Assembly: GCA_028282925.1 (NCBI GenBank) | Contig: JANQGV010000320.1 | Span: forward strand, 1-33,044 | Origin: Thermodesulfobacteriota bacterium | Lineage (GTDB): Bacteria > Desulfobacterota > WTBG01 > CAIYCZ01 > CAIRTM01 | Reading direction: 5' to 3' | DNA: 33,044 bases | Part shown: positions 2,860-33,044 of the stretch, one piece after another | Position numbering within the stretch: the stretch's first letter is position 1 | How the letters are laid out: each line of letters begins with the position of its first letter | The notes under the pieces: model-generated | Seen by the model: the letters and a program-made list of their open reading frames with translations, nothing else | Told to the model about the DNA's origin: nothing | Databases searched by the model: none | Position numbers and translations under genes: made by a program

Positions 2860-4007
2860 AGTGCGTCTACCGTGGTAATCAAGAGGCTGATAAGCCGGTT
2901 GTACGCCCATTCGGAAACATCGGCATTGGTAAGGATAATGAATCCAAAGTTGTCCGACGGCCTGAAAAAGAAGGCGGTCGACACGCCCGGATCGCCCCCG
3001 CTATGGCCCCAGTAGGCCACACCGCCGATATCATACTGTACCCAGCACAGGCCGTGGTCGGAACCGGCCTGGGGATAGTGCAGGGTAAACATCTCATTGA
3101 CCGTCTCTTCCGACAGCAGCCGTACACCGTTATACGAGCCGCCGTTCATAAAGCAGCGTAAAAATTGCGAAAGCCGGGTAACGCTGGTGCGCACAGACCC
3201 ACTGGGATAATCGGGATAATTGTAGTGCGGGTAGGGCAGGTAGCCGATAACGGGCACATGGGCATAGGGACGGGCGATATGAGACACGTTAAGTCCTTCC
3301 AGAAACCAGCTTGTTTCAGTCATGCCAAGGGGTAAAAAAATGTTTTCCGTGCAGTAATCGTTAAAGTCCTGCCCGGTGATGCTTTCCACAAGGTATCCCA
3401 GCAATGCGTAGCCGTAGTTGGAGTACTCATAATCGGTTCCGGGGGTATGGGTTGTGAAGTTGTCGATGGAGTAGTACGCACCCGACGGCATGAAATAGTC
3501 CTTTAGAAAATCGGCCAGCTTTACCCGGGGGTCGCCGGGAGAGTACTGAAACAAATAAAACGGAAAGCGGTCGGAAAGGCTTGAGGTATGAGCCAGCAGC
3601 ATCCTGAAGGTTATGGGCGTATCCGGAAAATCGGGGTTGCGCACGGAAAAGGGCAGGTGCTCATTAATATCATCATCAAGATCAAAAAGTCCCTGTTCAT
3701 ATACGTGCATAACCGCCGCGGCGGTGACGGTTTTGGACACCGAAGCCAGCATGAAGAGTGTATCGGTTGACGCCGGTATACGGGCATGTACGTCGGCATA
3801 TCCATATGCTTTGTTCCACAGGGTGTCATTGTCCTGCACGATACAGGCTGCAAGGGCGGGTACGCGATCGAGCAGCATAATGGAGGAGATGGTGCCGTCG
3901 AGGGTTTCCTCATCAAGTTGCCGGGCCGATACGTGGGGGACGAATACGACAAAGAACAGGTGCAGAATAACGCTCATGGTGCTGCATACGATGGATTTCA
4001 TAAGCAT
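2856..4007 (-). CDS. Exported beta-lactamase-like serine hydrolase (class C/esterase family)
   Basis: A 383-residue exported enzyme of the beta-lactamase/penicillin-binding-like family (PF00144 type). A signal peptide covers about residues 1-28. The nucleophile motif SxxK is Ser89-Val-Ser-Lys92, the second motif is Tyr195-Ser-Asn197, and the KTG-equivalent is His335-Ser-Gly337 in YWGHSGGDPG. HSG in place of KTG is typical of esterase or peptidase-like members rather than antibiotic-degrading enzymes. Likely roles are peptidoglycan peptide or ester hydrolysis in the periplasm. The first ATG at 4007 has a GGGAG site five bases upstream. The gene overlaps the flavoprotein gene by 4 bp and follows the homocysteine methyltransferase-like gene by 16 bp, so these are probably one transcript. 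Confidence 0.88.
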   Translation of the reverse strand: MLMKSIVCSTMSVILHLFFVVFVPHVSARQLDEETLDGTISSIMLLDRVPALAACIVQDNDTLWNKAYGYADVHARIPASTDTLFMLASVSKTVTAAAVMHVYEQGLFDLDDDINEHLPFSVRNPDFPDTPITFRMLLAHTSSLSDRFPFYLFQYSPGDPRVKLADFLKDYFMPSGAYYSIDNFTTHTPGTDYEYSNYGYALLGYLVESITGQDFNDYCTENIFLPLGMTETSWFLEGLNVSHIARPYAHVPVIGYLPYPHYNYPDYPSGSVRTSVTRLSQFLRCFMNGGSYNGVRLLSEETVNEMFTLHYPQAGSDHGLCWVQYDIGGVAYWGHSGGDPGVSTAFFFRPSDNFGFIILTNADVSEWAYNRLISLLITTVDAL

Positions 4008-12274: not shown

Positions 12275-13048
12275 ATGAAAAAAATCGAACTGATGTTTGG
12301 GGTTGTACTGGCAATGGCACTGGCGTTCACCATGCCGGTTTTCGCCGATGAGGATGAAGAGGTTGAATACGAATGCTGTTGCGTGCTTACCTGCAAGTGG
12401 AAATATACCATTCTGAATCCGGCCTGTGTGCAAAGCGACAATGCAACCGGGTATGTATATGCCCTGTATTCAGAATGTCGTGATTGGGTACCGGAGCTTG
12501 AAGGTCAATGTGAAAGCCAGCTGTATGCCGACGGCACGTGCAACACCTACAGCCAGCCACTAGCACAGGAAGCTCTTAAGGCAAAATTCCCTGAGATATG
12601 CCCTGAGGCTCTGCTCGATCCCATTGCCACGTTTTCATACGAGCGCCCCACCGATATTCCCTGTAAGTTCGGTGAAGCTGATGATTGCTTTATCATTGAT
12701 CTGACGGCACGTAATGATCCCCGGCTGGAGGTGATCCGCACATTCCGCGATGAGGTTTTGAGCGCAAGCGCAGCGGGAAGCAAGCTGATTGAGCTGTATT
12801 ACGACTATTCCGGTAAAATAATCGGTATATTTGATGAATATCCGTCGCTTAAAATGCATGCCCGCGAGCTGCTGGATGCGGCAGTGCCTGCACTTCAGGC
12901 CGTGCTGAACGGCGGAACTATCTCAGGGCTTATGGGCAGCCAGAGCGCCGCCGATGCGGATATTCTGGTTGAAGAGCTCGACGCCCTGATGCAGGCTCCT
13001 CTGCAAGAGAATCTGAATGCGCTGAAGCAGGAGATGGCAGCGGAATAA
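12275..13048 (+). CDS. Exported Cys-rich protein with CFI-box-type C-terminal domain (paralog 1)
   Basis: A 257-residue exported protein. Residues 1-24 are a signal peptide (PVFA-DED). A Cys-rich head follows: Cys34-36 in tandem, Cys40 in TCKWKYTI, Cys51, and more to about residue 113. The tail begins at CFI (138-140, DDCFIIDL), then TFRDEVL with FRD at 157-159, Gly168, ELYYDYS (173-179) and a helical end. This pattern matches the CFI-box-CTERM domain of NCBIfam (C-F-I then FRDxxL, then a Gly, then YYxxS); its function is unknown to me. A strong ribosome site (GGGAGAGG) precedes the ATG. The next gene is 86 bp downstream, past a terminator. It shares a near-identical C-terminus with paralog 2. 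Confidence 0.78.
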   Translation: MKKIELMFGVVLAMALAFTMPVFADEDEEVEYECCCVLTCKWKYTILNPACVQSDNATGYVYALYSECRDWVPELEGQCESQLYADGTCNTYSQPLAQEALKAKFPEICPEALLDPIATFSYERPTDIPCKFGEADDCFIIDLTARNDPRLEVIRTFRDEVLSASAAGSKLIELYYDYSGKIIGIFDEYPSLKMHARELLDAAVPALQAVLNGGTISGLMGSQSAADADILVEELDALMQAPLQENLNALKQEMAAE

Positions 13049-13134: not shown

Positions 13135-13908
13135 ATGAAAAAGATCGAACTGTTGTTGGGGGTACTGCTGGCGGCGGCCCTGGCATTCGCCATGCCGGCT
13201 GGTGCAGATGAAGAAGAACCGCCTGAGTACGAATGCTGCTGCGCGGTTACCTGCAAGTGGCAATATACCATTCTGAATCCGGCTTGTGTGCAAAGCGATA
13301 AAGCAACCGGAACCGTGGAATCATTTTATTCGGCCTGTGTCGATGCAGCCGAAGGCGCTCAAACAACCTGTGAAAGCCAGATTTTTGCCGATACCGTATG
13401 TTCGAACAGAAGCAGGGAAGGGGCAGAAGAACAGGTTAAGGAACTGTTTCCCGAGATATGTCCCGAGGCGTTTCTGGACCCGATTGCAACATACAGCTTT
13501 ATTCCTCCGACAGAGATCCTCTGCAAATACGGTGAAAAGGACGACTGTTCTATTATCGACCTTACCTCACGGGATGATCCCCGGCTGGAAGTGTTTCGGA
13601 AATTTCGTGACGAGGTGTTGAGCGGCAGTGCGGCCGGCAGCAAGCTGATTGAGCTGTACTACGACTATTCCGGCAAAATCATCGGTATATTTGATGAATA
13701 TCCGTCGCTTAAAATGCATGCCCGCGAGCTGCTTGACGCGGCAGTGCCTGCACTTCAGGCCGTGTTGAACGGCGGAACTATTTCAGGGTTTCTGGGCAGC
13801 CAGAGTGCCGCCGATGCAGACCTGCTGGTTGAGGAGCTCGATGCCCTTATGCAGGCTCCCCTGCAAGAGAATCTGAATGCGCTGAAGCAGGAGATCGTAG
13901 CGGAATAG
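13135..13908 (+). CDS. Exported Cys-rich protein with CFI-box-type C-terminal domain (paralog 2)
   Basis: A 257-residue exported protein collinear with the genes at 12275 and 24317. It has a signal peptide (1-24), the Cys34-36/Cys40 head (ECCCAVTCKWQ), and the tail with DCSII (the CFI becomes CSI), KFRDEVL, ELYYDYS and a helical end. The amino half reads like paralog 3 (24317), while the C-terminal third is nearly identical to paralog 1. A 53-bp exact match joins 13681-13733 to 12821-12873. This suggests gene conversion. GGGGGAGG lies upstream of the ATG. The role is unknown; export and a conserved Cys head suggest periplasmic or surface location. Confidence 0.78.
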   Translation: MKKIELLLGVLLAAALAFAMPAGADEEEPPEYECCCAVTCKWQYTILNPACVQSDKATGTVESFYSACVDAAEGAQTTCESQIFADTVCSNRSREGAEEQVKELFPEICPEAFLDPIATYSFIPPTEILCKYGEKDDCSIIDLTSRDDPRLEVFRKFRDEVLSGSAAGSKLIELYYDYSGKIIGIFDEYPSLKMHARELLDAAVPALQAVLNGGTISGFLGSQSAADADLLVEELDALMQAPLQENLNALKQEIVAE

Positions 13909-14341: not shown

Positions 14342-15166
14342 ATGAAAAAGCAAACAGCAAAAACGTTAGGCGCTGCCGTACTGTCGGTCCTGTTCTGTCT
14401 TTGTTTCGCAGCAAACGCCATGGCAACCATCACAACCACCAGTGCCTCAGACAATTGTTCCGCGGTACGCGCACAATGGACCTGGGACCCGCCCGGTGTG
14501 GTCGACACTGAAACACAAACCCTGTGGGCTGGCAGTTCGGCGCTGAACTTCTGGAATGTAAAGATTGAGATTGTTTCATATAACGATCCCAACCTTATCT
14601 ATGATGTTGCGGTGTATGCCAATCACGAGTGTAATTATGCTTCGGAGACCAGCCCGGTTTATAAAAAGCTTTTCACCGGGTCCTTTGCGGCCATAAATTA
14701 TGACGAGTACAGCCTGCAAACCACCATTCATCACCCCGGCGGCGACTGTGACGACAAGTATAAAGTCGACTTTGAGTACATCGATCCCGAAGACGGCCCC
14801 ACTGAAATCTATTTCCACGGATTTCATGACTGCCCGGTAGCCGTAACCCTGGCATCTTTTGAGGCGGAGCCCGGCAACGGTGAGGTGACCCTGAAGTGGG
14901 AAACCAGCGATGAGACCGACAACCTGGGATTCAATATCTACCGTAGCGAGTCCGAGGACGGCGAGTATGTGAAAATCAACGATTCCATCATTCTCTCGAA
15001 GGTGGGTACCGGACTGGGTACCACCTATCAGTTTGTAGACGGTACTGTTGATAACCTTAAAACCTACTATTACAAACTTGAAGACGTTGATACCTTTGGT
15101 GTGAGCACACTGCACCCGGTTGCAAGCGCCACCCCGCGTTTTATCTACGCAATCTTTCCGCAATAG
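14342..15166 (+). CDS. Exported protein with C-terminal Fn3-like module
   Basis: A 274-residue exported protein. The signal peptide is about residues 1-28 (ANAMA). The N-terminal half is beta-rich with Cys pairs and resembles no family I can name. The C-terminal module (about 167-274) begins VTLASFEAEPGNGEVTLKWE, then GFNIYRSESEDGEYVKIN, a YQFVD strand, YYYKLEDVD and ends SATPRFIYAIFPQ. This is a fibronectin type III-like fold. The same module ends three other proteins here (15773, 19254 and 30679). Such a shared C-terminal module could be a sorting or anchoring tail; this is inference. GGGGAGG precedes the ATG, and a strong terminator follows at 15190. Confidence 0.75.
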   Translation: MKKQTAKTLGAAVLSVLFCLCFAANAMATITTTSASDNCSAVRAQWTWDPPGVVDTETQTLWAGSSALNFWNVKIEIVSYNDPNLIYDVAVYANHECNYASETSPVYKKLFTGSFAAINYDEYSLQTTIHHPGGDCDDKYKVDFEYIDPEDGPTEIYFHGFHDCPVAVTLASFEAEPGNGEVTLKWETSDETDNLGFNIYRSESEDGEYVKINDSIILSKVGTGLGTTYQFVDGTVDNLKTYYYKLEDVDTFGVSTLHPVASATPRFIYAIFPQ

Positions 15167-15189: not shown

Positions 15190-15225
15190 AAAAGCGGTGC
15201 AGCCTGTGGTTGCACCGCTTTTTTT
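15190..15225 (+). terminator. Rho-independent terminator after 14342
   Basis: GCGGTGCA and TGCACCGC pair perfectly around a 9-base loop, flanked by an A-run and followed by seven T. It lies 24 bp after the stop. Confidence 0.9.
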
Positions 15226-15772: not shown

Positions 15773-17287
15773 ATGAAGAAACTGTTTGTTGTGGTAAGTG
15801 TTGCTCTTATGCTGCTGGTTGCAGGAGCCCCTGCACTTGCGGCAACCACTACGTACAACTGTGCCGCCATGGCCGATGCCCGGCTTGACCAGCGCGACCC
15901 CGGCGATAATTTCGGAACGGGTACAACCATGAAAATCGTGGGCGATCCGTTAAGCACGGAAGTGGTTCGGTCGATTATACGATTCAACATTCCGTCGTTT
16001 GTGTCACCGGGCCAGATCCAAAGCGCGGTGCTGCATCTCAACGGCAGAAGCGGCGATGATGTTGCAATCAACATTCATCCGGTAACCGCCTACTGGTATG
16101 AGAAGGATCTCTTTGAACCGGACACGACCCAGCTTATCTGGGGCGCCACCTGGAACAGCCCCGGCGGCGACTGGAGCGGCTATACCTGGGCAACCGCCGG
16201 AGGTGATTTCGATGCGGCGGAATCTCAAGCGGCAACCATTGCAAGCGGCTGGAACACGATCGATATTACGACTCTGCTCACCGATAATCTCGATACCATA
16301 CGGAAATTCGGAATCATGATGAAACTCCAGGACGAAACCCTGGACCAGTTCCGGAGCATCTATTCCCGCGACAACGCAGACCGGCATCCCTACCTGGAGC
16401 TGGTGGTTGACCTGGGACTTCCAGGAGACACGTACCTGTGTCCGGTAACAAGCGATATCTATATCGACTCCGGCCGGGACTACAACCTGAATTTCAAGAC
16501 CAGGGTACTGGTTTCATGGCATCCCACCTACGGTACCTCGCGGGGGCTGTGGCATTTTGAAATCCCCCCGGGAATTTCGGAAGCCTCGATCGAAAGCGCA
16601 ACCATGCATATTTCAGGTTCCGAGCATTCCCTTTCCCTGAAAACATTTGACGTGGATCTATCGGCCCTCAATACACCGTTTGACGAAGAGACCGACACCT
16701 GGGCGAGCCTGAGCGGCGGCGACTACGACGCCGGCGTGACCAGCACCGGAAGTCTTCCCGGAACGCTGAACCCGGCGATGACAAACTGGTATGCGGCCCT
16801 TGATGTAACGACCCTTCTGGCCGGTAACCTCGACAAGGTGCGTAACAACGGTGTTCTGATGAAACAGACAACCGAAGGCGTTGCCAAGCTGCACCAGAAT
16901 ATTGCATCGCGCGAAGCCTACGATCCTACTGATGTAGCGGCCTATCTGGAAATCAACGTCAAGCCGACCCTGATTTCCCTGGCATCCCTGGAAGCGGTTC
17001 CGGGATGCGGCAGTGTTACGCTGCAATGGTCGACGGACAGTGAAATACATAACGCCGGTTTCAATATCTACCGGGCCGAACAGGGCGGTGAATTCGTGAA
17101 AATCAACGCGGAAATCATCCCGGCCCAGGGCGGGCCGCTCAGCGGAGCAGCGTATGAGTTCGTCGATGCGTCGGTGAAAAACCGCACGGCCTATACCTAC
17201 AAGCTGGAGGACATCGACAGCGACGGAACGGCCACCATGCACGGCCCGGTCAGCGCGACGCCCCGGCTTATCTACCTGGTAAAATAA
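15773..17287 (+). CDS. Exported double-DNRLRE protein ending in Fn3-like module
   Basis: A 504-residue exported protein. The signal peptide is residues 1-24 (LAATTTY). Residues about 26-214 and 222-396 are two DNRLRE domains (beta-sandwich, now related to CBM96; NCBIfam DNRLRE). Hallmarks include NFGT, SIIRFNIPSFV and SAVLHLNG in the first, and LHQNIASRE near the end of the second. Residues 399-504 form the Fn3-like C-terminal module (LASLEAVPGCGSVTLQWS to SATPRLIYLVK). The likely role is surface binding to polysaccharide, inferred from CBM96 members. It is a paralog of 17407, which differs at the C-terminus. AAGGAGGT lies 7 bases before the ATG. It has its own promoter, leader and terminator. 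Confidence 0.85.
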   Translation: MKKLFVVVSVALMLLVAGAPALAATTTYNCAAMADARLDQRDPGDNFGTGTTMKIVGDPLSTEVVRSIIRFNIPSFVSPGQIQSAVLHLNGRSGDDVAINIHPVTAYWYEKDLFEPDTTQLIWGATWNSPGGDWSGYTWATAGGDFDAAESQAATIASGWNTIDITTLLTDNLDTIRKFGIMMKLQDETLDQFRSIYSRDNADRHPYLELVVDLGLPGDTYLCPVTSDIYIDSGRDYNLNFKTRVLVSWHPTYGTSRGLWHFEIPPGISEASIESATMHISGSEHSLSLKTFDVDLSALNTPFDEETDTWASLSGGDYDAGVTSTGSLPGTLNPAMTNWYAALDVTTLLAGNLDKVRNNGVLMKQTTEGVAKLHQNIASREAYDPTDVAAYLEINVKPTLISLASLEAVPGCGSVTLQWSTDSEIHNAGFNIYRAEQGGEFVKINAEIIPAQGGPLSGAAYEFVDASVKNRTAYTYKLEDIDSDGTATMHGPVSATPRLIYLVK

Positions 17288-17406: not shown

Positions 17407-19227
17407 ATGTGCCGGAAAATAATATCTTGTTTTTGGCTGCTGTGTATCCTGTGTGCTGTTTCCGGTTATGCACAGGCGGAAACAGTGTATACCTGCAATG
17501 CAATGGCCGACACAACCCTGCGCTCCGCTGATAATGAAACCAACTTCGGGACGGATGTGGACGTTCTTGTTGCAGGAGACGATTCGGGTGCGGACATTTC
17601 CCGGGGAGTGTTTCGATTCAACATCCCGTCGTTTGTCACTGCCGGGCAGGTGCAGGAAGCGGTGTTGCATTTGAAAGGGCAAAGCGGTGATGATGTTGCC
17701 GTAAACATTCATCCGGTAACCGGTTACTGGTATGAAAAGGACCTTTTTGAACCGGACATGACCCAGCTTATCTGGGGCGCCACCTGGAGCAGCCCCGGCG
17801 GTGATTTCGATGCAACGGAATCACAAGCGGTGATCATTGCCGACGGCTGGAACGCTATCGATATTACGACCCTGTTTGCCGATAACCTCGATACCATCCA
17901 AAAATACGGAATTCTGATGAAACTCCAGGATGAGGCCGTTGACCAGTCCAGCAGTATTTATTCTCGGGACAACAGTGACTTTAACCCCTATATTGAACTG
18001 ACTGTGGATCTTGGCCTTAAAGAAGGCGAGCACCTTTGTCCGGTTATTCATGATGTGTATATAGACTCTGGCCGTGAGTATAATCTAAACTTCAAGACCA
18101 GGATTCTGGTTTCATGGCACCCATCGTATGGAACCTCACGCGGGCTATGGAGGTTCGATATCCCATCGGGAATTTCGGCATCGGCAATCGATAATGCAAC
18201 CATGTATATTTCCGGTTCCGAGCATGTGTCCGGAGGGGAAACTCTCAATGTGGAACTGTTCGCCCTCAACGAGCCCTTTGCCGAGGAAAAAGACACCTGG
18301 ACGAGCCTAAACGGTGGGGATTACGATACCGAAGATAATGCCAGCGACACACTGCCGAACACAGGAGGTATGAACTGGTATAAGGAAATAGATGTAACCG
18401 GGCTGTTGAGCAGCAAGCTCGACAAGGTGCGCGACTACGGCTTACTGATGAAAAGCTCCGCCGAAGAGGTTTCTAAGCTGCATCAGAACATAGCGTCGCG
18501 GGAAAGTGCCGATGCAACCGACCGGGCGGCATACCTGCTGATACAATGTGACACCTCAACCAGTTCTTCCAGCACAACCACAACATCAGTCGTTCCGACC
18601 ACCACTTCCAGCACCTCGGGCGGAAACAACGGCGGTGGGCCGGACCCTACCACCACCACGGCTCCGGCCACGACCACCACCACGCTCCCGGCTTCAACCA
18701 GCACAACGACAACCATACCGCCAACGACCACCACCTCCAGCATAGCGCCCCCGCCGGAGGAACCCACCACAACCACAACGGTTCACCAGGGACCGTGCCC
18801 GGTTGAACTGCTGGTGAAACAGGCTGATGCCGGAACCGCCGGCCTGTTCAGGAGGTTTCGCGACCAGCGGTTGAACACCACGGGCCTGGGGTTATCGTTG
18901 TGTTATGTGTATTACGCCCATGCCGGTGAAATGGTGCGGATATTGACCGGTAAGCCTGATTTGGGTGCGAGGGTCGGGGAGCTTTTGCAGGAAGTGATTC
19001 CGGCGTTTCGTAGAGGCCTTGAACAGGGAGCACCGATTATTGTAACGAAAAAACAGGTGCGGGCCGGAGCAGGAATCATGGAGGAGATGCAGCGCTCCGC
19101 ATCGCCGGAACTGTACAGGGGCATCGAAACCCTGATCCGCCTGCTGGTTGAACGCGATGCGCTGAAACAGTTTGGAGTGGAAATTGCTGCACCAAAACAG
19201 CGTAACAATGCCCGGCTGATACAATAA
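17407..19227 (+). CDS. Exported double-DNRLRE protein with Thr-rich linker and CFI-box-like tail
   Basis: A 606-residue exported protein. The signal peptide is residues 1 to about 24 (YAQA-ETV). Residues about 25-208 and 212-380 are two DNRLRE domains closely matching those of 15773 at protein and DNA level. A Thr/Ser/Pro-rich linker covers about 381-461, probably a flexible and possibly glycosylated spacer. The tail (about 462-606) reads as a diverged CFI-box-CTERM: GPCPVELL, then LFRRFRDQRLNTT, a Gly, and YVYYAHAGEM. It lacks the Fn3-like module its paralog has. It lies 26 bp upstream of 19254 and starts a likely operon to 24010. The start has only a weak GGA site. Confidence 0.82.
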   Translation: MCRKIISCFWLLCILCAVSGYAQAETVYTCNAMADTTLRSADNETNFGTDVDVLVAGDDSGADISRGVFRFNIPSFVTAGQVQEAVLHLKGQSGDDVAVNIHPVTGYWYEKDLFEPDMTQLIWGATWSSPGGDFDATESQAVIIADGWNAIDITTLFADNLDTIQKYGILMKLQDEAVDQSSSIYSRDNSDFNPYIELTVDLGLKEGEHLCPVIHDVYIDSGREYNLNFKTRILVSWHPSYGTSRGLWRFDIPSGISASAIDNATMYISGSEHVSGGETLNVELFALNEPFAEEKDTWTSLNGGDYDTEDNASDTLPNTGGMNWYKEIDVTGLLSSKLDKVRDYGLLMKSSAEEVSKLHQNIASRESADATDRAAYLLIQCDTSTSSSSTTTTSVVPTTTSSTSGGNNGGGPDPTTTTAPATTTTTLPASTSTTTTIPPTTTTSSIAPPPEEPTTTTTVHQGPCPVELLVKQADAGTAGLFRRFRDQRLNTTGLGLSLCYVYYAHAGEMVRILTGKPDLGARVGELLQEVIPAFRRGLEQGAPIIVTKKQVRAGAGIMEEMQRSASPELYRGIETLIRLLVERDALKQFGVEIAAPKQRNNARLIQ

Positions 19228-19253: not shown

Positions 19254-21008
19254 ATGAACACTAGGGTAAAAAAACGGATAGTATTTTTATTGTCGGCCGT
19301 TGCTTTGTTGCCGATCACTGTTTGTGCGGACACGGTACACCTCACGGCCGACAACGATACCTACATTGACGCTCTGTATGCCGACACGTCCTTCGGCAGT
19401 GAATGGAAGCTTCTCATGAGCGGTTCCCCGGGAAAACCGGCCCACGGACTCATGCATTTTGATTTCAGCCCGGTTCCGGAACATGCCCTCATTACCAAAG
19501 CGGACCTGACCCTGTGCGTGCACGGGTCACGCAGCACAGACACCTTTACCACCTTGCCGCTAACGCGCCCCTGGTCGGAAACCACCGCAACCTGGCGGCA
19601 AAAATCAGCAGGGGCTGCATGGTACACGCCGGGGGGCGATTACGACCCGGCAACCAGCGCCGATGCCCCGGTGCCCGCAACAATCCCCGGCTGGACGGTC
19701 ATGGACGTGACGGGCAGTGTGGTAACCCCCGATGGTGCGGTTGATCCGATTGTTGCCGCCAACGGGTTGCTGCTCCAGGCCGACGACGGGTACAGCAAGG
19801 TGTTGTCTTCTGAGCTGGTCACCTATGCAAGCGCTCAAACCTGTCACTCCTGCCACGGGACGTTCGACACACAGCGGGATGCAGGCAAGCACACCGATTG
19901 CGCCCGGTGCCACAGCCGGGAAGGGCTGCCCCTGGCTGGTGAACCCGCCCTGGTGGTTGAATATGAGCCCATGCTGTTTCAGTTTGTGCAGTTGTCGGAT
20001 GTACACATTGGCAGAACACCGCAGCAGTCCGTGAACCTCACCAACGCGGTAACACAGATTAATGCCCTTGATCCTGATTTTGTGCTCTTTACCGGCGATC
20101 TGACCGAGCAGGGGCTTGAAAGCGAGTACCAGACTTTTATTGATACGGTCGCACTGCTCAGCATGCCGTACTACTGTATTCCAGGTGATAATGATGTTGT
20201 GGAAAGCGCCGTGCTGGGGGCCGATCTTGAGCGGTATCGGGCCTACCTGGGCGATGAGTACTACCGTTTCGAGTATATGGGTTTCAACATTATCGGCATA
20301 AACAACACTCTGGATCCGTCCCTCGGCAGCGTGCAACGGCAATGGTTTGAGCAGCAGTTGCAGGGTGGGGCGCCGAACTTGGTTTTCGGTCATAAAGCAC
20401 TACTCGGCCGGACGAGCGGCATGCCGGTACAGGGTGCCGAACAGGTGCTTGACCTGCTCGGGGCATACGGGGCCGGGGCTTTCTTCAACGGCGACGACCA
20501 CGAACACGCCCAGCACATGCATACTAACGTGCAGCACTTCTGGTGCGACAACCTGAGTTTCGCCCATTACGGCGACCCCTATAATTTCTACCGGGTATAT
20601 TCCGACCGCATTGTGCTGTATCATGTAGACCTGCGCAACGGTTCCATGACACGGGTGGGGAGTTACGCCCTGCAGGAACCGTTGACCCTTATAGAGCTGG
20701 AATCCTTTCAGGCCGTAGCGGGAAACGGCCGGGTGACGTTGAGCTGGTCTACGAAAGCCGAGATCGATACTGCCGGTTTTCATGTTGTCCGGACGGAAAA
20801 GGGCAAGAGTCCGGTACGGATAACCCCGGAGCTGATTGCCGCACGGGGAGGGGCGCTTGCCGGTGCCGACTATACAGTGTGCGACAGTGATGTGCAGAAC
20901 CGGCGCGAATATACATATCGGCTTGTTGATGTTGATGTGACGGGCGTGGAAACATCCCACGGGCCGGTAACGGCCACGCCCAGGCTTCTATACGGTTTTG
21001 GGAACTGA
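19254..21008 (+). CDS. Exported DNRLRE protein with two CxxCH motifs, phosphoesterase domain and Fn3-like tail
   Basis: A 584-residue exported protein. The signal peptide is 1-25 (VCA-DTV). A DNRLRE domain runs from about 26 to 190. It is interrupted by a Cys/His insert with two heme c-type motifs, Cys197-HS-Cys200-His201 and Cys216-AR-Cys219-His220, then resumes with PALVVEYE. A calcineurin-like phosphoesterase domain (about 243-470) has Asp249-Val-His251, Asp282 in TGDLT, GDND (311-314), His380 in FGHK and GDDHEH (413-418, His416 and His418). The Fn3-like tail is about 478-584. The combination is unusual; heme attachment and metal binding are predictions. It is co-transcribed with 17407 and 21010. 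Confidence 0.87.
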   Translation: MNTRVKKRIVFLLSAVALLPITVCADTVHLTADNDTYIDALYADTSFGSEWKLLMSGSPGKPAHGLMHFDFSPVPEHALITKADLTLCVHGSRSTDTFTTLPLTRPWSETTATWRQKSAGAAWYTPGGDYDPATSADAPVPATIPGWTVMDVTGSVVTPDGAVDPIVAANGLLLQADDGYSKVLSSELVTYASAQTCHSCHGTFDTQRDAGKHTDCARCHSREGLPLAGEPALVVEYEPMLFQFVQLSDVHIGRTPQQSVNLTNAVTQINALDPDFVLFTGDLTEQGLESEYQTFIDTVALLSMPYYCIPGDNDVVESAVLGADLERYRAYLGDEYYRFEYMGFNIIGINNTLDPSLGSVQRQWFEQQLQGGAPNLVFGHKALLGRTSGMPVQGAEQVLDLLGAYGAGAFFNGDDHEHAQHMHTNVQHFWCDNLSFAHYGDPYNFYRVYSDRIVLYHVDLRNGSMTRVGSYALQEPLTLIELESFQAVAGNGRVTLSWSTKAEIDTAGFHVVRTEKGKSPVRITPELIAARGGALAGADYTVCDSDVQNRREYTYRLVDVDVTGVETSHGPVTATPRLLYGFGN

Positions 21009-21009
21009 C

Positions 21010-22569
21010 GTGGAATTGCATGTAAAAAAACTGCTGCCGTACGTGGTGTTTGCCGTTCAGGTGTTTGTGGGAGGCTGTACGCCCGGGGACGACGTCCAGG
21101 TGCAGGTGGCGGAGACCGATGCAGGTTTTGCCGATTTCAGACATGCACCGCCCGATATTGTGTACGGGCCGTACGCGCTTGCCGTAACCACGGACAGCGC
21201 GGTGATCGCCTGGGAGGAGCGCCGGGGACTAAACGGGCTCAGGCATGTGGAGGTTGAGATGGGCGGCCTGGAACCGGGCATCGAATACCGCTACCGGGTG
21301 AACGGTGCGGCGGGAGACGGCCGTTTTGTGACGCCGCCGGATACGGACAACGGATCTTCATTCGGTTTTTTTGTCTGGGGCGATACGCGGACAGGCAATA
21401 ACGAGAGCGGCCGCATCGTTGATGCAATGCTGGCCCGTGATCCTGAAGCGGCCTTCGCCCTGCACACCGGCGACATGGTTGAAGACGGGGATGTGCTGGA
21501 CGATTGGGAAGTGCACTGGTGGACACCGATGGCCGATCTGCTGGCGGCAATGCCGGTGTATCCCACCATGGGAAACCACGAAGTAAATTCAGAGTGGTAC
21601 CAGCGGTATTTCGGGTGCCTGGGCGACCGGGGTATGAACTACTCGTTTGACTGGGGCCGGGTGCATTTCGTTGTGCTGGATGCAAACAGCGTCAATTTCG
21701 GTACGGAGCAGCAGCTTGCGTGGCTGGAAGCGGACTTGCGGGAGCACATGGATGCCGATTTTACGATTGTCGGTCACCATATCCCGGTTTATTTTTCATC
21801 ACCGGGCGATACAAACGGCATGCCCTATCTGCAGGAATCGGTGTTGCCGCTCTATGAGCGCTATGGCGTTGATCTGGTGTTGAGCGGCGACGTGCACAGC
21901 TATCAGCATCATGTGCGAAACGGTATCCATTTCCTGATTTCGGCCGGCGGCGGAGAGAAACCTTCGGAGCACGGTCTGCCCCTGGAGGGCATGACCCGTG
22001 CCCTGGCACAGGTGTATCATTATGTTCACTGCCGGGTCGACGGAAAAACCATGCAGGTAACGGCCTATGATGTTGATGGAGCGATACTGGAAGCGTTCAG
22101 CATAGAAGCGGGCGCACCATCGGCACTGCCCGCACGGGTAGTGGTAGAGGCCGACCGGGAGCAGGCCGCACCGGGCGACACGATTGTGCTTGATATCTCA
22201 GTTGAAAATATCAGCGGCCTGGAACGCGCCGCCCTTTCACTGCCGTATGTGAAAAGCCGGCCGCCGGTTGCGTTGACGGTTGCCGACAGCGACCCGTCCC
22301 GGGAGGGCATACAGGTACTTCCCGGTGGCCTTGGAGGTAGTGTTACGGGCAACAGCGCCGATAACGCAACCGGAGTGTTGCAGTATACGGAAGAAGATAT
22401 CGGCGGCGGGTCGCTGGATACCGGGCTGATTGCATCGGTTGAGCTGCTGGTGCCGGACGATGTGCGTGCAACCGCCTTTTATTTTGTGCCGGTCTGTACG
22501 TTCCAGGACAGTACCGGAAATACGATCCCGCACTCTATGGGCGGTGTCAAGGTTGTGTTGAAACTGTAA
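21010..22569 (+). CDS. Purple-acid-phosphatase-like lipoprotein with cohesin-like C-terminus
   Basis: A 519-residue lipoprotein. I choose a GTG at 21010, immediately after the stop of 19254 (21006-21008), because GGGA precedes it at suitable spacing; a TTG at 20998 would also read in frame. The lipobox is VGGC. A short N-terminal Fn3-like (PAP-type) domain is followed by a metallophosphoesterase domain: Asp125 in GDTR, Asp155 in GDMVEDGD, GNHE 188-191, GHH 255-257 and GDVH 293-296. The C-terminal 145 residues resemble a cohesin fold (VVVEADREQAAPGDTIVLDI). No dockerin was found in the window to pair with it. It is probably a periplasmic or surface phosphatase, acting with 19254. Confidence 0.85.
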   Translation: MELHVKKLLPYVVFAVQVFVGGCTPGDDVQVQVAETDAGFADFRHAPPDIVYGPYALAVTTDSAVIAWEERRGLNGLRHVEVEMGGLEPGIEYRYRVNGAAGDGRFVTPPDTDNGSSFGFFVWGDTRTGNNESGRIVDAMLARDPEAAFALHTGDMVEDGDVLDDWEVHWWTPMADLLAAMPVYPTMGNHEVNSEWYQRYFGCLGDRGMNYSFDWGRVHFVVLDANSVNFGTEQQLAWLEADLREHMDADFTIVGHHIPVYFSSPGDTNGMPYLQESVLPLYERYGVDLVLSGDVHSYQHHVRNGIHFLISAGGGEKPSEHGLPLEGMTRALAQVYHYVHCRVDGKTMQVTAYDVDGAILEAFSIEAGAPSALPARVVVEADREQAAPGDTIVLDISVENISGLERAALSLPYVKSRPPVALTVADSDPSREGIQVLPGGLGGSVTGNSADNATGVLQYTEEDIGGGSLDTGLIASVELLVPDDVRATAFYFVPVCTFQDSTGNTIPHSMGGVKVVLKL

Positions 22570-22602
22570 TAATACATGGACAGGAAAGGATGGGAAAAAA
22601 AT

Positions 22603-23094
22603 ATGAAGGTATATTCACTGAAAAAAGTATGTGCATACACAGTCGTGATGCTGAGTACGGTTTGTATGCTTGCCGGTTGTGATATCTGGATCGGCGAAGA
22701 ATATGTGTATGTGAAACTCGGCGAAACAAGCGTTACCGTCCCGCTCCAGGGCATGCAGACCACCGGGGTCAATGACCGGGCCGTTGTAAACCTGGCTGAA
22801 GTGATTGAAAAGGCCGACGTTGTTGAGGATCCTGAAAATTACTTTTACAATTTTATAGCCTCCGACGGTTATTCATTGCGGGCCCTGCTGATAAATGAAA
22901 AGCGCGGTACGGGCCTGCCGCCCTGGCAGGACATGCAGAAAGGGTATCTGTATGCCAGCGAATCCTATGAGCTGGTGGCAGGCTGGGAAGAGGGCACGCT
23001 GGGCGGTACCCACGGGGGCTGCTACAATGCCAAGTATATGAACGGCGGCACCATACAGCTTCTTGAAGAGGACATTATCGTAGAAGAGCAATGA
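22603..23094 (+). CDS. Small lipoprotein, possibly molybdopterin-domain-like
   Basis: A 163-residue lipoprotein. The start at 22603 is favoured (GGAAAGGATGGG upstream); an upstream ATG at 22576 adds nine residues before a good signal. Lipobox LAGC gives Cys26. The mature part contains YNFIASDGYSLRALLIN and ELVAGWEEGTLGGTHGGC. The DGYS segment weakly resembles the oxidoreductase molybdopterin-binding (sulfite oxidase-type) fold, but length is short and the expected Cys ligand cannot be assigned, so this is tentative. It sits inside the operon between 21010 and 23132. Confidence 0.6.
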   Translation: MKVYSLKKVCAYTVVMLSTVCMLAGCDIWIGEEYVYVKLGETSVTVPLQGMQTTGVNDRAVVNLAEVIEKADVVEDPENYFYNFIASDGYSLRALLINEKRGTGLPPWQDMQKGYLYASESYELVAGWEEGTLGGTHGGCYNAKYMNGGTIQLLEEDIIVEEQ

Positions 23095-23131
23095 AAAAGT
23101 AAAAAAAACAACCACTGCAATGAAAGAGAGT

Positions 23132-24010
23132 ATGAAAAAATACCTGCACGTTATTATACTAATCGTAATTCTAGTCCTTACCGCCGGGGCCGCCGGGGCT
23201 CAGACCATCATATGCCCGGCAATTGCCGATGTCAGCATCGACGAATGGTACCCGGATGAGAACATGAACTATAAGGACCGCCTGATACTGGCCACCAATA
23301 TGAACAGCCATCACGGCATTGCCCGGGCCCTGCTGCGTTTCGACATACCGGCGGAAGTACAGCCGGAGGAAATCAAGACGGCATTTGTGTATTTTTCCGG
23401 GTGCAGCCATTGCGGGGGCGCCAAAGGCGGCACGATCCGCATGTGCGCTCTGAACGATCCCTTCGATGAAAACACCGATACGTGGGCAACGCTTGACGGC
23501 GGGAACTGGGATGAGACCGTGTGCTGCGATGCCGAGCTGCCCGGGGGAAGCGCCTGGAACGAGGCTGTTAATGGAGAAAAAACGTCCGAGGCCGTGGGTA
23601 TGGATATTACGGCCCTGCTCACCGGTAATCTCGAAAAAGTGCGTACCAACGGCATTATGATCCGGTTCGCCGACGAGCACCAGCAGCCCTATACCCACCA
23701 GAACATAGCGTCGCGGGAGTCGGAGGACACCCTGGATTTTGCACCCTGTATTGTGCTCAACGACAATGCTGCTCCCTGTGCGGCCGGGGTTGCGCTGGGA
23801 AATGATTTGCCGGCCCTTGAAACGTTACGCCGCTTTCGGGACCGCGTGCTGGCCGGATCTGTAACCGGGCGTACGCTCACGGCCCTGTACAACCTGTGTT
23901 CACCAGCCTGTGCGCGTTATCTGCGCGAACACCCCGGGCCCAGAAAACAGGCCGAAACAATACTGCGGGGCATGTTGCCGCTGGTGCGCCGTGTGCTGGA
24001 AAAACCCTGA
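23132..24010 (+). CDS. Exported single-DNRLRE protein with CFI-box-like tail
   Basis: A 292-residue exported protein. The start at 23132 (GAGAG upstream) is chosen over an upstream ATG at 23120. The signal peptide ends near GAAGAQT. Residues about 20-208 form one DNRLRE domain: LLRFDIPAEVQ, DPFDENTDTWATL and HQNIASRES are recognisable. A CSHC pair (SGCSHCGG) sits inside it. The tail (about 215-292) matches the CFI-box-CTERM pattern: TLRRFRDRVLAGSVTGRTL, then ALYNLCSPACARYLREH and a final helix. The leading CFI is not intact. It ends the operon, with a hairpin right after the stop. Confidence 0.8.
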   Translation: MKKYLHVIILIVILVLTAGAAGAQTIICPAIADVSIDEWYPDENMNYKDRLILATNMNSHHGIARALLRFDIPAEVQPEEIKTAFVYFSGCSHCGGAKGGTIRMCALNDPFDENTDTWATLDGGNWDETVCCDAELPGGSAWNEAVNGEKTSEAVGMDITALLTGNLEKVRTNGIMIRFADEHQQPYTHQNIASRESEDTLDFAPCIVLNDNAAPCAAGVALGNDLPALETLRRFRDRVLAGSVTGRTLTALYNLCSPACARYLREHPGPRKQAETILRGMLPLVRRVLEKP

Positions 24011-24316: not shown

Positions 24317-25090
24317 ATGAAAAAGATGGAACTGTTATTGATGATGTTACTAACTGCGGCTTTGGCGTTTGCCATGCCGGTTTTTGCTGATGAAGAGGAA
24401 CCGCCTGAATACGAATGCTGTTGCGCGGTTACCTGCAAGTGGCAGTACACCATCTTGAATCCGGCCTGTGTGCAAAACGACAAGGCAACCGGCACCGTTG
24501 AATCCTTTTATTCGGCCTGTACCGATGTGGCCGAAGGTGCTCAAACAACCTGTGAAAGCCAAATATTTGCTGATACGGTCTGTTCGAATAGAAGCAGGGA
24601 GGGGGCCGAAGAACAGCTTAAGGAACTGTTTCCCGAAATATGCCCCGAGGCGTTTCTGGACCCCATTGCAACATATACCTTCATACCTCCGACAGAGATT
24701 CTCTGCAAATACGGGGAAAAGGACGACTGTTCTATTATCGACCTTACCTCACGGGACGATCCCCGGCTGGAGGTGTTTCGGACATTCCGCGACGAGGTGC
24801 TGAGTGCAAGCGCAGCCGGCAGCAAGCTGATTGAACTGTACTATGATTATTCAATTAAAATTATCCGGGTTTTCAACGAATACCCGTCGCTTAAAATGCA
24901 TGCCCGCGAGCTGCTTGATGCGGCAGTGCCTGCAATTCAGGCCGTGCTGAACGGTGGAAGTATAAAAGGGCTGCTGAGCAGCCAGGGTGCCGTTGATGCA
25001 GACATCCTGGTTGAGGAAATCGATGCCCTTATGCAGGCCCCGTTGCGTGAGGATCTGAGCCGGCTGAGCAGCGAGCTTGCTGCGGAGTAA
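24317..25090 (+). CDS. Exported Cys-rich protein with CFI-box-type C-terminal domain (paralog 3)
   Basis: A 257-residue exported protein collinear with 12275 and 13135. It has a signal peptide (1-24), Cys34-36/Cys40 head, and the tail with DCSII, TFRDEVL and ELYYDYS. The amino half is closest to paralog 2. The C-terminal third differs from both (SIKIIRVFNEY, and LREDLSRLSSELAAE at the end). It is separated by about 10 kb from the other two, so the family is dispersed. GGGAGAGG precedes the ATG. A bidirectional terminator follows. Function unknown. Confidence 0.78.
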   Translation: MKKMELLLMMLLTAALAFAMPVFADEEEPPEYECCCAVTCKWQYTILNPACVQNDKATGTVESFYSACTDVAEGAQTTCESQIFADTVCSNRSREGAEEQLKELFPEICPEAFLDPIATYTFIPPTEILCKYGEKDDCSIIDLTSRDDPRLEVFRTFRDEVLSASAAGSKLIELYYDYSIKIIRVFNEYPSLKMHARELLDAAVPAIQAVLNGGSIKGLLSSQGAVDADILVEEIDALMQAPLREDLSRLSSELAAE

Positions 25091-30678: not shown

Positions 30679-33044
30679 TTAAAACAGGCCGAATCCGATA
30701 GCGCGTGTACTGACCGGGCCGTGCTCGGTGGCTGTGCCGTTCAGGTCGATGTCTTTCAGTTTGTAGAAGTAGGTGCCGCCGATCTTCACATCCCGGTCGA
30801 TAAAGCTGTATGAGGCCCCTTCGGTTGCCGACCCTTTTGCCGGTATGATGGAAGCATTAATTTTTACGTAGTCGCCGTTCGCGGCATCGGCACGATAGAT
30901 GTTGAAGCCGGCGTTGTCTATTTCAGCATCGGTAGACCATTCCAGGGTTACTTTGTTCCAGGCGCCTTTGGCGCTGAAACCGGCAAGCTCAATCAGCACA
31001 ACCTCTGAACAGATACAGTTCTTGCATTCATAGCCCGGGGCACAGTCGCCCAAACCGGGTTCGCCGCATTCTTCACCGGCATCAACAATGCCGTTGCCGC
31101 ATTCAGGAGTATACACACACTGGCACCCTTCACAGGATTCACCTGTTCCGGTACAGTCAATGCCCACTTCACACTCTTCACCCGGATCGAGGGTTCCGTC
31201 GCCGCAGACGGATTCGGTTACGAGCCGGAAAATCTTGGCTCCGCCCAGGCCCTGGGGTGTTGAGCTGGCCCCCTTGCTGCCGGAAACATACACAGTGCCG
31301 CCGAAATCGGCAAAGCCTTCAAAGATAACAATGTCGCCGTCACCGAACCCGTCATCGGTAATGGTGTTCCAGATGATGCCGTCGGGGGTGCTGCGCAGTG
31401 AGCAGCCCGGGGGCGGAGTTGCACCGTATTCAGGTATATAAATGGTAACATCGCCGGTGTACATGAGATCGCTTGCGTACGGGAACATGTTGATGGCTAT
31501 GTTGTTATACCCCCAGTTGGCGAAGTTCGCCAGACCGTCAAAGCCTTCAGGAATAGCGGAAGTGCCGCCGACGCTGTGCTTCCACATGTCGCCGCCACCG
31601 GTGTCGGTATCGGCGGAGCCTGCCTCATTGCTGTAGAGAACCCGGATACCGCCCAGGGAGTTGATGCCGACGATCAGCTTGGAATCGAAGGTTGCCAGGT
31701 TCCAGGGCATAAAGTTGCCGGAGCTCATGGTGCAACCCATACCGTCTCCGAAACCGTTTTCGTTGGTGCCGGTGTCGTTTCCATCCACGTCAACGTCAAC
31801 AATCAGCTCCCAGCCTGTGGGGGTAAGTACTGCCATGCGTGAGCAACTGCCTTTGTCGCCGCTGGTGCCGGTGCCGCCGGCATACAGTTTGCCGTCGAAT
31901 ACGGTCAGGTTGGTAATACTGCTGGATATCGGTTTTAAGCCGTCAGGGTAGGCCGTTCCATCGGTATGGTAGTTGCCGAAGCTGTTGGCCGGCAAGGTTA
32001 CCGTCCAGTTGTCGCCGTCCGCGGTATACCATACCTGGGCGCCGAACTCGTAGTTAAGGCCCGTGCTCACGTAGAGCTTACCGTCGAATATATCCATGTC
32101 GGTGATGGTCTTGTTCCATGGTTCACCGAAACCGCTCTCATCGTAGCCCGTACCGATTTCGTAAGAATCGCCAACTACAATTGCCCCCAGGGTGTAGGAG
32201 TACATGGGGTAGGGGTTGCTGTAATTTTTTGCGGCGCAGATGGTAAACTCGCTTTCGCTTGCCGGGTCAGCACCGGTTCCGGCCGAATCGTTTTGCTGAA
32301 TGGTGAGGGTATCCGCGGTGTTGGAAATGATCTTGAACTTGCGGTATAAGCCGTCGCCCGAAGTGATTTCAAGCACGCCGCCGGCCCATTCATCCGGTAC
32401 CCAGGTTTTGGTGGAGTCGGTAATCCGGGAGGTTTTGGCGGAATCGGCATCGGCACAGTCGCTGATTGCAGTTATGCTGCCGCTTTCCTCGGTGTCGAAT
32501 TTGGAGGAAATAACCGGTTCCCACTCGGTACCGTCGAAGCGCCAGATTTCGCAGCCGGTGGAGCCCAGGTAGCTTCCCTGGAGCCCGGAGGAGATTCCGA
32601 AGTAGAGCTTGCCGTCAAAAACGATCATACGGCCCCAAACATTGTTGAGCCAGGGGTTGCCGTACACACCGTTTTCCACGCCCCCGGGAAACAGAACCTG
32701 TTCCCAGCCGGTGCCGGTGGTGCGCCATACTTCAGCGCCTTCGGCCTGGTTGCGGGTCATGGCATAGAGGCGGTTCTGGTATTCCGTCATGGCAACCACC
32801 GAGAAGTTGTTGGAAGCGGAACCGGCCGGGTTGTCGAAACCTTCAAAGTTGACCCGTTCCCACTCTGATCCGTCAACGTTTGCTGTAACCGTTTCAAGGG
32901 TTGCAGGTATGTTTGTTGCGGACGGTGAAAGTGCATCCAGGAAGTAGACGGTATACATGGCGATCCGGTATGTCTGTTGATCGCGGGTGATGTCTGCAGG
33001 GCTGTCTACCGGAACGGGCTGTACATACGAATGGTCTGAAGCAT
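30679..33044 (-). CDS. Large exported protein with Cys-rich repeats and Fn3-like tail (partial, truncated at right edge)
   Basis: About 788 residues are visible. The frame has no stop between the first internal ATG (32958) and the window edge, so the start is outside. The amino part has repeated DGKLY-type strands (FDGKLYFGIS, FDGKLYVSTG, FDGKLYAGGT), suggesting a beta-propeller. Two DUF4215/Myxococcus-type Cys-rich repeats follow (CGDGTLDPGEECE and CGNGIVDAGEECG). The final 105 residues form the Fn3-like module (LIELAGFSAKGAWNKVTLEW, GFNIYRADAANGDYVKIN). This is the same module found in 14342, 15773 and 19254, about 10 kb away. Probably a surface protein. Confidence 0.8.
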   Translation of the reverse strand, partial: ASDHSYVQPVPVDSPADITRDQQTYRIAMYTVYFLDALSPSATNIPATLETVTANVDGSEWERVNFEGFDNPAGSASNNFSVVAMTEYQNRLYAMTRNQAEGAEVWRTTGTGWEQVLFPGGVENGVYGNPWLNNVWGRMIVFDGKLYFGISSGLQGSYLGSTGCEIWRFDGTEWEPVISSKFDTEESGSITAISDCADADSAKTSRITDSTKTWVPDEWAGGVLEITSGDGLYRKFKIISNTADTLTIQQNDSAGTGADPASESEFTICAAKNYSNPYPMYSYTLGAIVVGDSYEIGTGYDESGFGEPWNKTITDMDIFDGKLYVSTGLNYEFGAQVWYTADGDNWTVTLPANSFGNYHTDGTAYPDGLKPISSSITNLTVFDGKLYAGGTGTSGDKGSCSRMAVLTPTGWELIVDVDVDGNDTGTNENGFGDGMGCTMSSGNFMPWNLATFDSKLIVGINSLGGIRVLYSNEAGSADTDTGGGDMWKHSVGGTSAIPEGFDGLANFANWGYNNIAINMFPYASDLMYTGDVTIYIPEYGATPPPGCSLRSTPDGIIWNTITDDGFGDGDIVIFEGFADFGGTVYVSGSKGASSTPQGLGGAKIFRLVTESVCGDGTLDPGEECEVGIDCTGTGESCEGCQCVYTPECGNGIVDAGEECGEPGLGDCAPGYECKNCICSEVVLIELAGFSAKGAWNKVTLEWSTDAEIDNAGFNIYRADAANGDYVKINASIIPAKGSATEGASYSFIDRDVKIGGTYFYKLKDIDLNGTATEHGPVSTRAIGFGLF

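Follow-up and report, generated by a model that had tools for sequence, protein, structure and literature searches.

The window, by which we mean the whole stretch of 33,044 nucleotides that was analysed, contains an open reading frame at 19254-21008 (+ strand) whose 584-residue product, counted from ATG, carries two CxxCH motifs inside a DNRLRE (CBM96) domain. We conclude that the segment holding these motifs is very probably a c3-type diheme segment grafted into the CBM96 domain, and it is predicted to bind heme c covalently. The gene and its parts are laid out as follows:

19254..21008, + strand: whole gene, encoding a DNRLRE(CBM96)-putative diheme insert-metallophosphoesterase-FN3-like protein of 584 aa, predicted to be exported (ORF translation, profile matches)
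19254..19328, + strand: predicted signal peptide, residues 1-25, MNTRVKKRIVFLLSAVALLPITVCA (by inspection)
19329..19814, + strand: CBM96/DNRLRE domain, residues 26-187, ending at SSE (profiles; structural alignment of a low-confidence model)
19521..19523, + strand: His90, candidate distal heme ligand (ortholog and paralog alignments)
19815..19943, + strand: insert, residues 188-230, cytochrome-c3-like putative diheme segment ahead of the last DNRLRE strand (alignments, profiles)
19842..19856, + strand: first CxxCH, CHSCH, residues 197-201 (sequence; codon comparison)
19899..19913, + strand: second CxxCH, CARCH, residues 216-220 (sequence; codon comparison)
19944..19970, + strand: last DNRLRE strand, PALVVEYEP, residues 231-239 (alignment with paralogs)
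19980..20504, + strand: calcineurin-like metallophosphoesterase PF00149, residues 243-417 (profile, motifs)
20673..21005, + strand: C-terminal FN3-like domain, residues 474-584 (repeats in the genome)

By inspection, the N-terminus of the protein resembles a Sec-type signal. The scaffold domain matched both the DNRLRE profile NF033679 (E 2e-15; 57.3 bits, curated cut-off 34) and CBM96 PF24517 (E 3.3e-12; 47.0 bits, curated cut-off 26), whereas no Cache family matched the protein. A calcineurin-like phosphoesterase had been placed after the DNRLRE domain in a preliminary description of this DNA, and Metallophos PF00149 was indeed found there well above its curated cut-off (E 4.5e-13; 50.5 bits against 21.5). 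Absent from that description was the domain past the phosphoesterase (474-582). This FN3-like domain of about 105 aa occurs in about 44 copies in the source genome at 29-54% identity, with window copies at 20673-21005, 16964-17284, 14843-15163 and 30706-31005 (-). The one window copy that was scanned matched no Pfam or NCBIfam family; the domain is possibly a sorting or surface domain.

The insert comprises about 43 residues between the SSE that ends at residue 187 and Pro-231, and is flanked by LSSE (184-187) on one side and by PALVVEYE (from 231) on the other. TCHSCH provides Cys197, Cys200 and His201, and CARCH provides Cys216, Cys219 and His220. In an alignment with five DNRLRE domains of other window proteins, the extra residues fall on the short SRE-xxDxxDxA-(P/A)YLEI loop region of these paralogs. 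Both the position of the two motifs between LSSE and PALVVEYE and the paralog ends reading SRE, a short loop and an AYLEI-like strand are thus as initially described. None of the other 22 translated open reading frames of the window contains a CxxCH motif. An AF2 model was built on six window sequences; at a mean pLDDT of 55.3, its core aligned best to CBM96-type structures over 155 residues (VIA-align; 8wab, Z 9.5; 7vbo, Z 9.1). Profile matches above cut-off and the same last strand link the protein to known CBM96/DNRLRE domains (PF24517, NF033679; 7VBO), and the low-confidence model suggests a similar fold. It differs from them by the roughly 43 extra residues with two CxxCH before the last strand, and carbohydrate binding is putative here.

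Three orthologs, full or partial, were identified at 50-53% identity, one in a genome of the same family (G007) and two in another family of the same order (G009 and G010). Both CxxCH motifs are kept in all four genomes, including the source genome G000, and hence in two families. The four inserts share the pattern A-x-TCHSCHG-xxD-xxxD-x-GK-x-T-x-CA-x-CH-x(6)-L-x-GEP. Residues Cys197, His198, Cys200, His201, Cys216, Cys219 and His220 are invariant in the four genomes, while all seven codons vary synonymously (TGT/TGC, CAC/CAT), which argues that the insert is not a product of chance. Chance or an assembly artefact as its source was rejected, since the identical junction occurs in four separate genomes. 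Close homologs lacking the CxxCH motifs were looked for and none was found. The preliminary architecture recurs elsewhere, with DNRLRE plus insert in all three orthologs and the phosphoesterase fusion in G009 and G010. The insert did not prove to be more conserved than the core (invariant columns 47% versus 41%, Fisher p 0.49). Wherever dS allowed an estimate, dN/dS lay far below 1 in both parts; judged from these alignments, insert and DNRLRE core are under similar constraint.

The insert was not found in the other seven genomes of the order at E 0.001. A profile of DNRLRE plus insert, run over 395 genomes of the phylum, recovered only the same four cases; the other matches examined were plain DNRLRE domains or multiheme cytochromes. 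Scans of genome contigs, viral contigs (two scans) and plasmids yielded no insert-bearing relative, the genome-contig scan being weak evidence of absence as it used one sequence and few patterns. Because the seven other genomes of the order and the 395-genome phylum sample gave no further cases, the heme-DNRLRE domain looks like a clade-specific invention within the genomes searched. Unreported members beyond these genomes are possible.

A profile of the insert alone (55 positions) was likewise run over the 395 genomes. Besides the four known cases it gave 13 matches at E 1e-3 or better, all of them multiheme proteins with 4 to 25 CxxCH each. In the source genome its other matches were weak (E 0.097-0.67) and comprised three multiheme proteins and one single-motif protein. 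The latter (L093:1363-2082, on contig C318) consists of a small c-type cytochrome domain (QCASCHGG), a Thr-rich linker and a CFI-box-like C-terminus, and is a further cytochrome with the surface-type tail seen in proteins of the heme-gene cluster. Small tetraheme cytochromes of about 130 aa (L101, L103, L105, L106, L108, L112) that are similar to the insert occur repeatedly in the phylum, with the pattern CAxCHKxATPxxYxxWxxSVHG...CxQCHGTYE...TNCAxCH.

The four inserts themselves matched Cytochrom_c3_2, Cytochrome_C7, MtrC/MtrF and Cytochrom_CIII with best E-values of 3.6e-4 to 3.8e-3, below the curated cut-offs. The score for PF22113 (MtrC/MtrF) was 15.5 bits with the whole protein and 19.5 bits with the insert alone (cut-off 30), and that for PF14522 (Cytochrome_C7) was 13.9 and 16.7 bits, respectively (cut-off 24.8). 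Such scores are expected for half a domain. The best PDB match of the insert, basic cytochrome c3, was not significant (E 0.36). With class III multiheme cytochromes (PF14537, PF14522, PF22113 domains II/IV) the insert shares sequence and the CxxCHG-x(13)-CAxCH spacing, and its profile matches them. However, the class calls for at least three hemes in one domain, whereas the insert has two motifs only, forms no independent cytochrome domain and scores below the curated cut-offs.

A ResB gene (E 9e-94) adjoins a CcsA-type gene on contig C123 of the source genome. CcsBA has been shown to attach heme to short CXXCH peptides, requiring only both thiols and the His (PMC8112865), and hemes have been placed on non-heme scaffolds in vivo by substitution of three residues (PMC6962350). 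With the motifs kept in orthologs, an insert profile that finds only multiheme cytochromes and ResB-CcsA in the genome, the initial heme-c reading gained strength, while its emphasis on the phosphatase fusion lost some. An arrangement without heme, in which the four Cys pair up as disulfides or bind zinc in a ribbon-like CxxC-x15-CxxC site, is improbable. Zinc ribbons have a similar CxxC spacing, and HypA (E 0.0058) and Zn_ribbon_8 (E 0.43) were among the weak matches; these were, however, weaker than the cytochrome matches or occurred in fewer members of the insert family. Moreover, both His beside the CxxC are invariant, every phylum-wide match of the insert profile is a multiheme cytochrome, and the protein is predicted, from its signal by inspection, to be exported in a bacterium that has heme c attachment genes.

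Four His are invariant among the four orthologs in the part comprising DNRLRE domain and insert, namely His90, His198, His201 and His220. The only one located in the DNRLRE core is His90, which appears to go with the insert because the five paralogs carry Asn, Ser or Lys in the corresponding column. We therefore regard His90 and His198 as candidate distal ligands of the two hemes, which would account for all four invariant His. Ahead of the second motif, the window copy has KH where the other three orthologs have KS, so no distal His of the HxxCxxCH type is conserved. Geometry and pocket of the hemes cannot be read from the AF2 model, as the pLDDT of the insert is only 33-40.

The hemes might instead have a structural role, stabilising the loop by the last strand without electron transfer and perhaps replacing the Ca2+-binding region of CBM96. 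The insert does take the place of the SRE-xxDxxDxA loop of the paralogs, and the CBM96 structure 7VBO has a stabilising Ca2+ that is held by Asp82, Asp142 and main-chain atoms of Asp140 and Ile145 (PMC9971899). Two hemes would be a costly staple, however, and the paralogs manage without one; we consider this explanation unlikely.

The best PDB match of the phosphoesterase was GpdQ (2ZO9; E 1.7e-4). In the window copy the metal-site motifs read DxH, GD, GDND (for GNHD), H and GDDH (for GHxH). GDND replaces GNHD in all three fused orthologs (G000, G009, G010), and the GHxH motif is GDDH in the window copy and GHDH in G009 and G010. The domain resembles GpdQ-like metallophosphoesterases (2ZO9, 3D03; PF00149) in that DxH, GD and GHxH-type motifs align, and differs from them in being fused and, by prediction, exported, in the GDND of the three fused orthologs and in the GDDH of the window copy. 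Whether this predicted enzyme with its altered metal-site motifs is catalytically active is uncertain. Equivalog identities as CpdA, LpxG or YaeI were rejected with scores far below cut-off. In the G007 ortholog the heme-DNRLRE domain leads into a CFI-box-type C-terminus, which closely resembles another CFI-box of that genome, and a phosphoesterase is absent. Heme-DNRLRE is thus the constant unit and the phosphoesterase fusion is optional. The fusion, initially put forward as part of what makes the protein unusual, does recur in G000, G009 and G010; its weight is reduced by its absence from G007 and by the altered metal-site motifs.

Both phosphoesterase domains of the gene cluster (21415-21903 and 19980-20504) have GDxH where their relatives in G007 or in G009/G010 have GHxH, the same metal-ligand change thus occurring in the neighbouring genes 19254-21008 and 20998-22569. 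On contigs C104, C318 and C291 of the source genome, several metallophosphoesterase matches lie about 1-5 kb from matches to cytochrome families or to the heme-insert profile.

The gene for the heme-insert protein is the second in a cluster that further comprises:

17407..19227, + strand: gene 1, two DNRLRE domains, Thr-rich linker and CFI-box-like C-terminus, no CxxCH (profiles)
20998..22569, + strand: gene 3, metallophosphoesterase lipoprotein, lipobox by inspection (profile; ortholog adjoins the heme gene in G007 and G010)
22576..23094, + strand: gene 4, small lipoprotein, assigned by inspection (45% to the C-terminal portion of a DNRLRE protein encoded at the equivalent position in G010)
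23120..24010, + strand: gene 5, DNRLRE and CFI-box-CTERM (51% to the ortholog in the equivalent position of G010)

The genes between 17407 and 24010 are nearly contiguous, with gaps of at most 26 nt and a single overlap of 11 nt between the heme gene and gene 20998-22569. The products of the cluster, as judged from sequence features, are surface-type proteins, with no electron-transfer partner among them. The gene order is the same in G010: a DNRLRE-CFI gene, the heme gene, the phosphoesterase lipoprotein, a DNRLRE protein with the domain of the 22576 gene, and DNRLRE-CFI. In G007 the ortholog of the phosphoesterase lipoprotein (47%) adjoins the heme gene, and every genome in which a close ortholog of this lipoprotein was found also has the heme gene. 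The G010 lipoprotein is encoded in two frames (L052, 3173-3988 and 3985-4668), indicating a frameshift or an assembly error near 3985. The small lipoprotein 22576-23094, which matched no known family, corresponds to the C-terminal part of a larger G010 DNRLRE protein (L052:4675-6396), pointing to gene fission or fusion. Elsewhere in the window, three related, exported-looking Cys-rich proteins (YECCC...CKW) with a CFI-box-CTERM end are encoded at 12275-13048, 13135-13908 and 24317-25090, two copies, 11 kb apart, being 87% identical. Two strong terminator-like hairpins lie back to back at 15190-15222 (+) and 15274-15240 (-), between gene 14342-15166 and the DNRLRE genes.

Taken as a whole, we read the protein, with somewhat better than even confidence, as an exported, probably surface-located diheme element for redox reactions or electron transfer that is carried on a DNRLRE scaffold, the phosphoesterase being a passenger. 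Some 43 residues resembling half of a tetraheme class III (c3/c7-type) cytochrome would have entered the loop that precedes the last strand of the CBM96/DNRLRE beta-sandwich. ResB-CcsA would, with high probability, attach heme c at both CxxCH outside the cytoplasmic membrane. The two hemes would be near neighbours, the His of each motif serving its own heme as proximal ligand, with His90 and His198 as candidates on the distal side. The heme-DNRLRE part would form the conserved unit, joined to a variable partner, either a metallophosphoesterase or a CFI-box, and its scaffold would hold the diheme element at the cell surface or matrix. The phosphoesterase would be co-localised and remain outside electron transfer. 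Both electron transfer and surface location are suggested by the domain types. A more far-reaching version appears doubtful: that a polysaccharide- or matrix-binding CBM96 domain has been turned into a diheme carrier, by which heme pairs would be fixed to the surface matrix, wired to multiheme cytochromes and provided with exchangeable C-terminal enzymes or anchors.

For the role of the unit, we place surface redox or electron transfer first and a heme sensor second. As a sensor, the inserted hemes would perceive redox state or a gas, for instance NO, to which the phosphoesterase joined to them would respond. By analogy, the closest precedent of the insert is the heme-Cache domain (sCache_heme; DUF3365/Tll0287), in which a short cytochrome fragment within a sensor fold can yield an NO sensor if signalling modules are attached, whereas stand-alone domains look redox-related (preprint, PMC12889525). 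In the window protein, the fold joined to the insert is of the phosphodiesterase type (GpdQ). However, the heme domain of the G007 ortholog comes with no phosphoesterase, the phosphoesterase of the window protein is predicted to be exported and its metal-site motifs are altered, and two close hemes with extra invariant His residues resemble low-spin electron-transfer sites, so that a sensor has little probability. Very unlikely is a joint chemistry loosely like that of SoxAX and SoxB, the latter being a metallophosphoesterase-fold enzyme that works with heme proteins, in which the hemes would oxidise and the metal site hydrolyse one S or P compound: the fusion is retained in G000, G009 and G010, hence in two families, but G007 lacks it, the cluster showed no sox-like gene, and in the PDB profile comparison the phosphoesterase matched GpdQ best rather than SoxB.

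Like sCache_heme, the surface redox element proposed here would be a cytochrome-derived CXXCH fragment inside a pre-existing, non-cytochrome extracytoplasmic fold, occurring alone or joined to other domains (PMC12889525). In contrast to sCache_heme, the scaffold is CBM96/DNRLRE and not Cache, there are two CxxCH rather than one, no signalling module is present, and the spread is limited to one bacterial order among the genomes searched, instead of extending across phyla. The literature searched contained no paper joining DNRLRE and cytochrome and none on a heme-bearing DNRLRE/CBM96 domain. A cytochrome fragment in a foreign fold is of an already known kind, while the DNRLRE/CBM96 host with two motifs would be new. 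If the reading is true, heme-Cache would be joined by a second natural example of a ready-made extracytoplasmic fold that has taken up a short piece of cytochrome, with two hemes instead of one, and this would bear on how easily heme c and redox function spread to non-cytochrome proteins. Standard cytochrome counts overlook diheme segments of some 40 residues whose scores fall below family cut-offs, and the heme inventories of such bacteria may therefore be too low.
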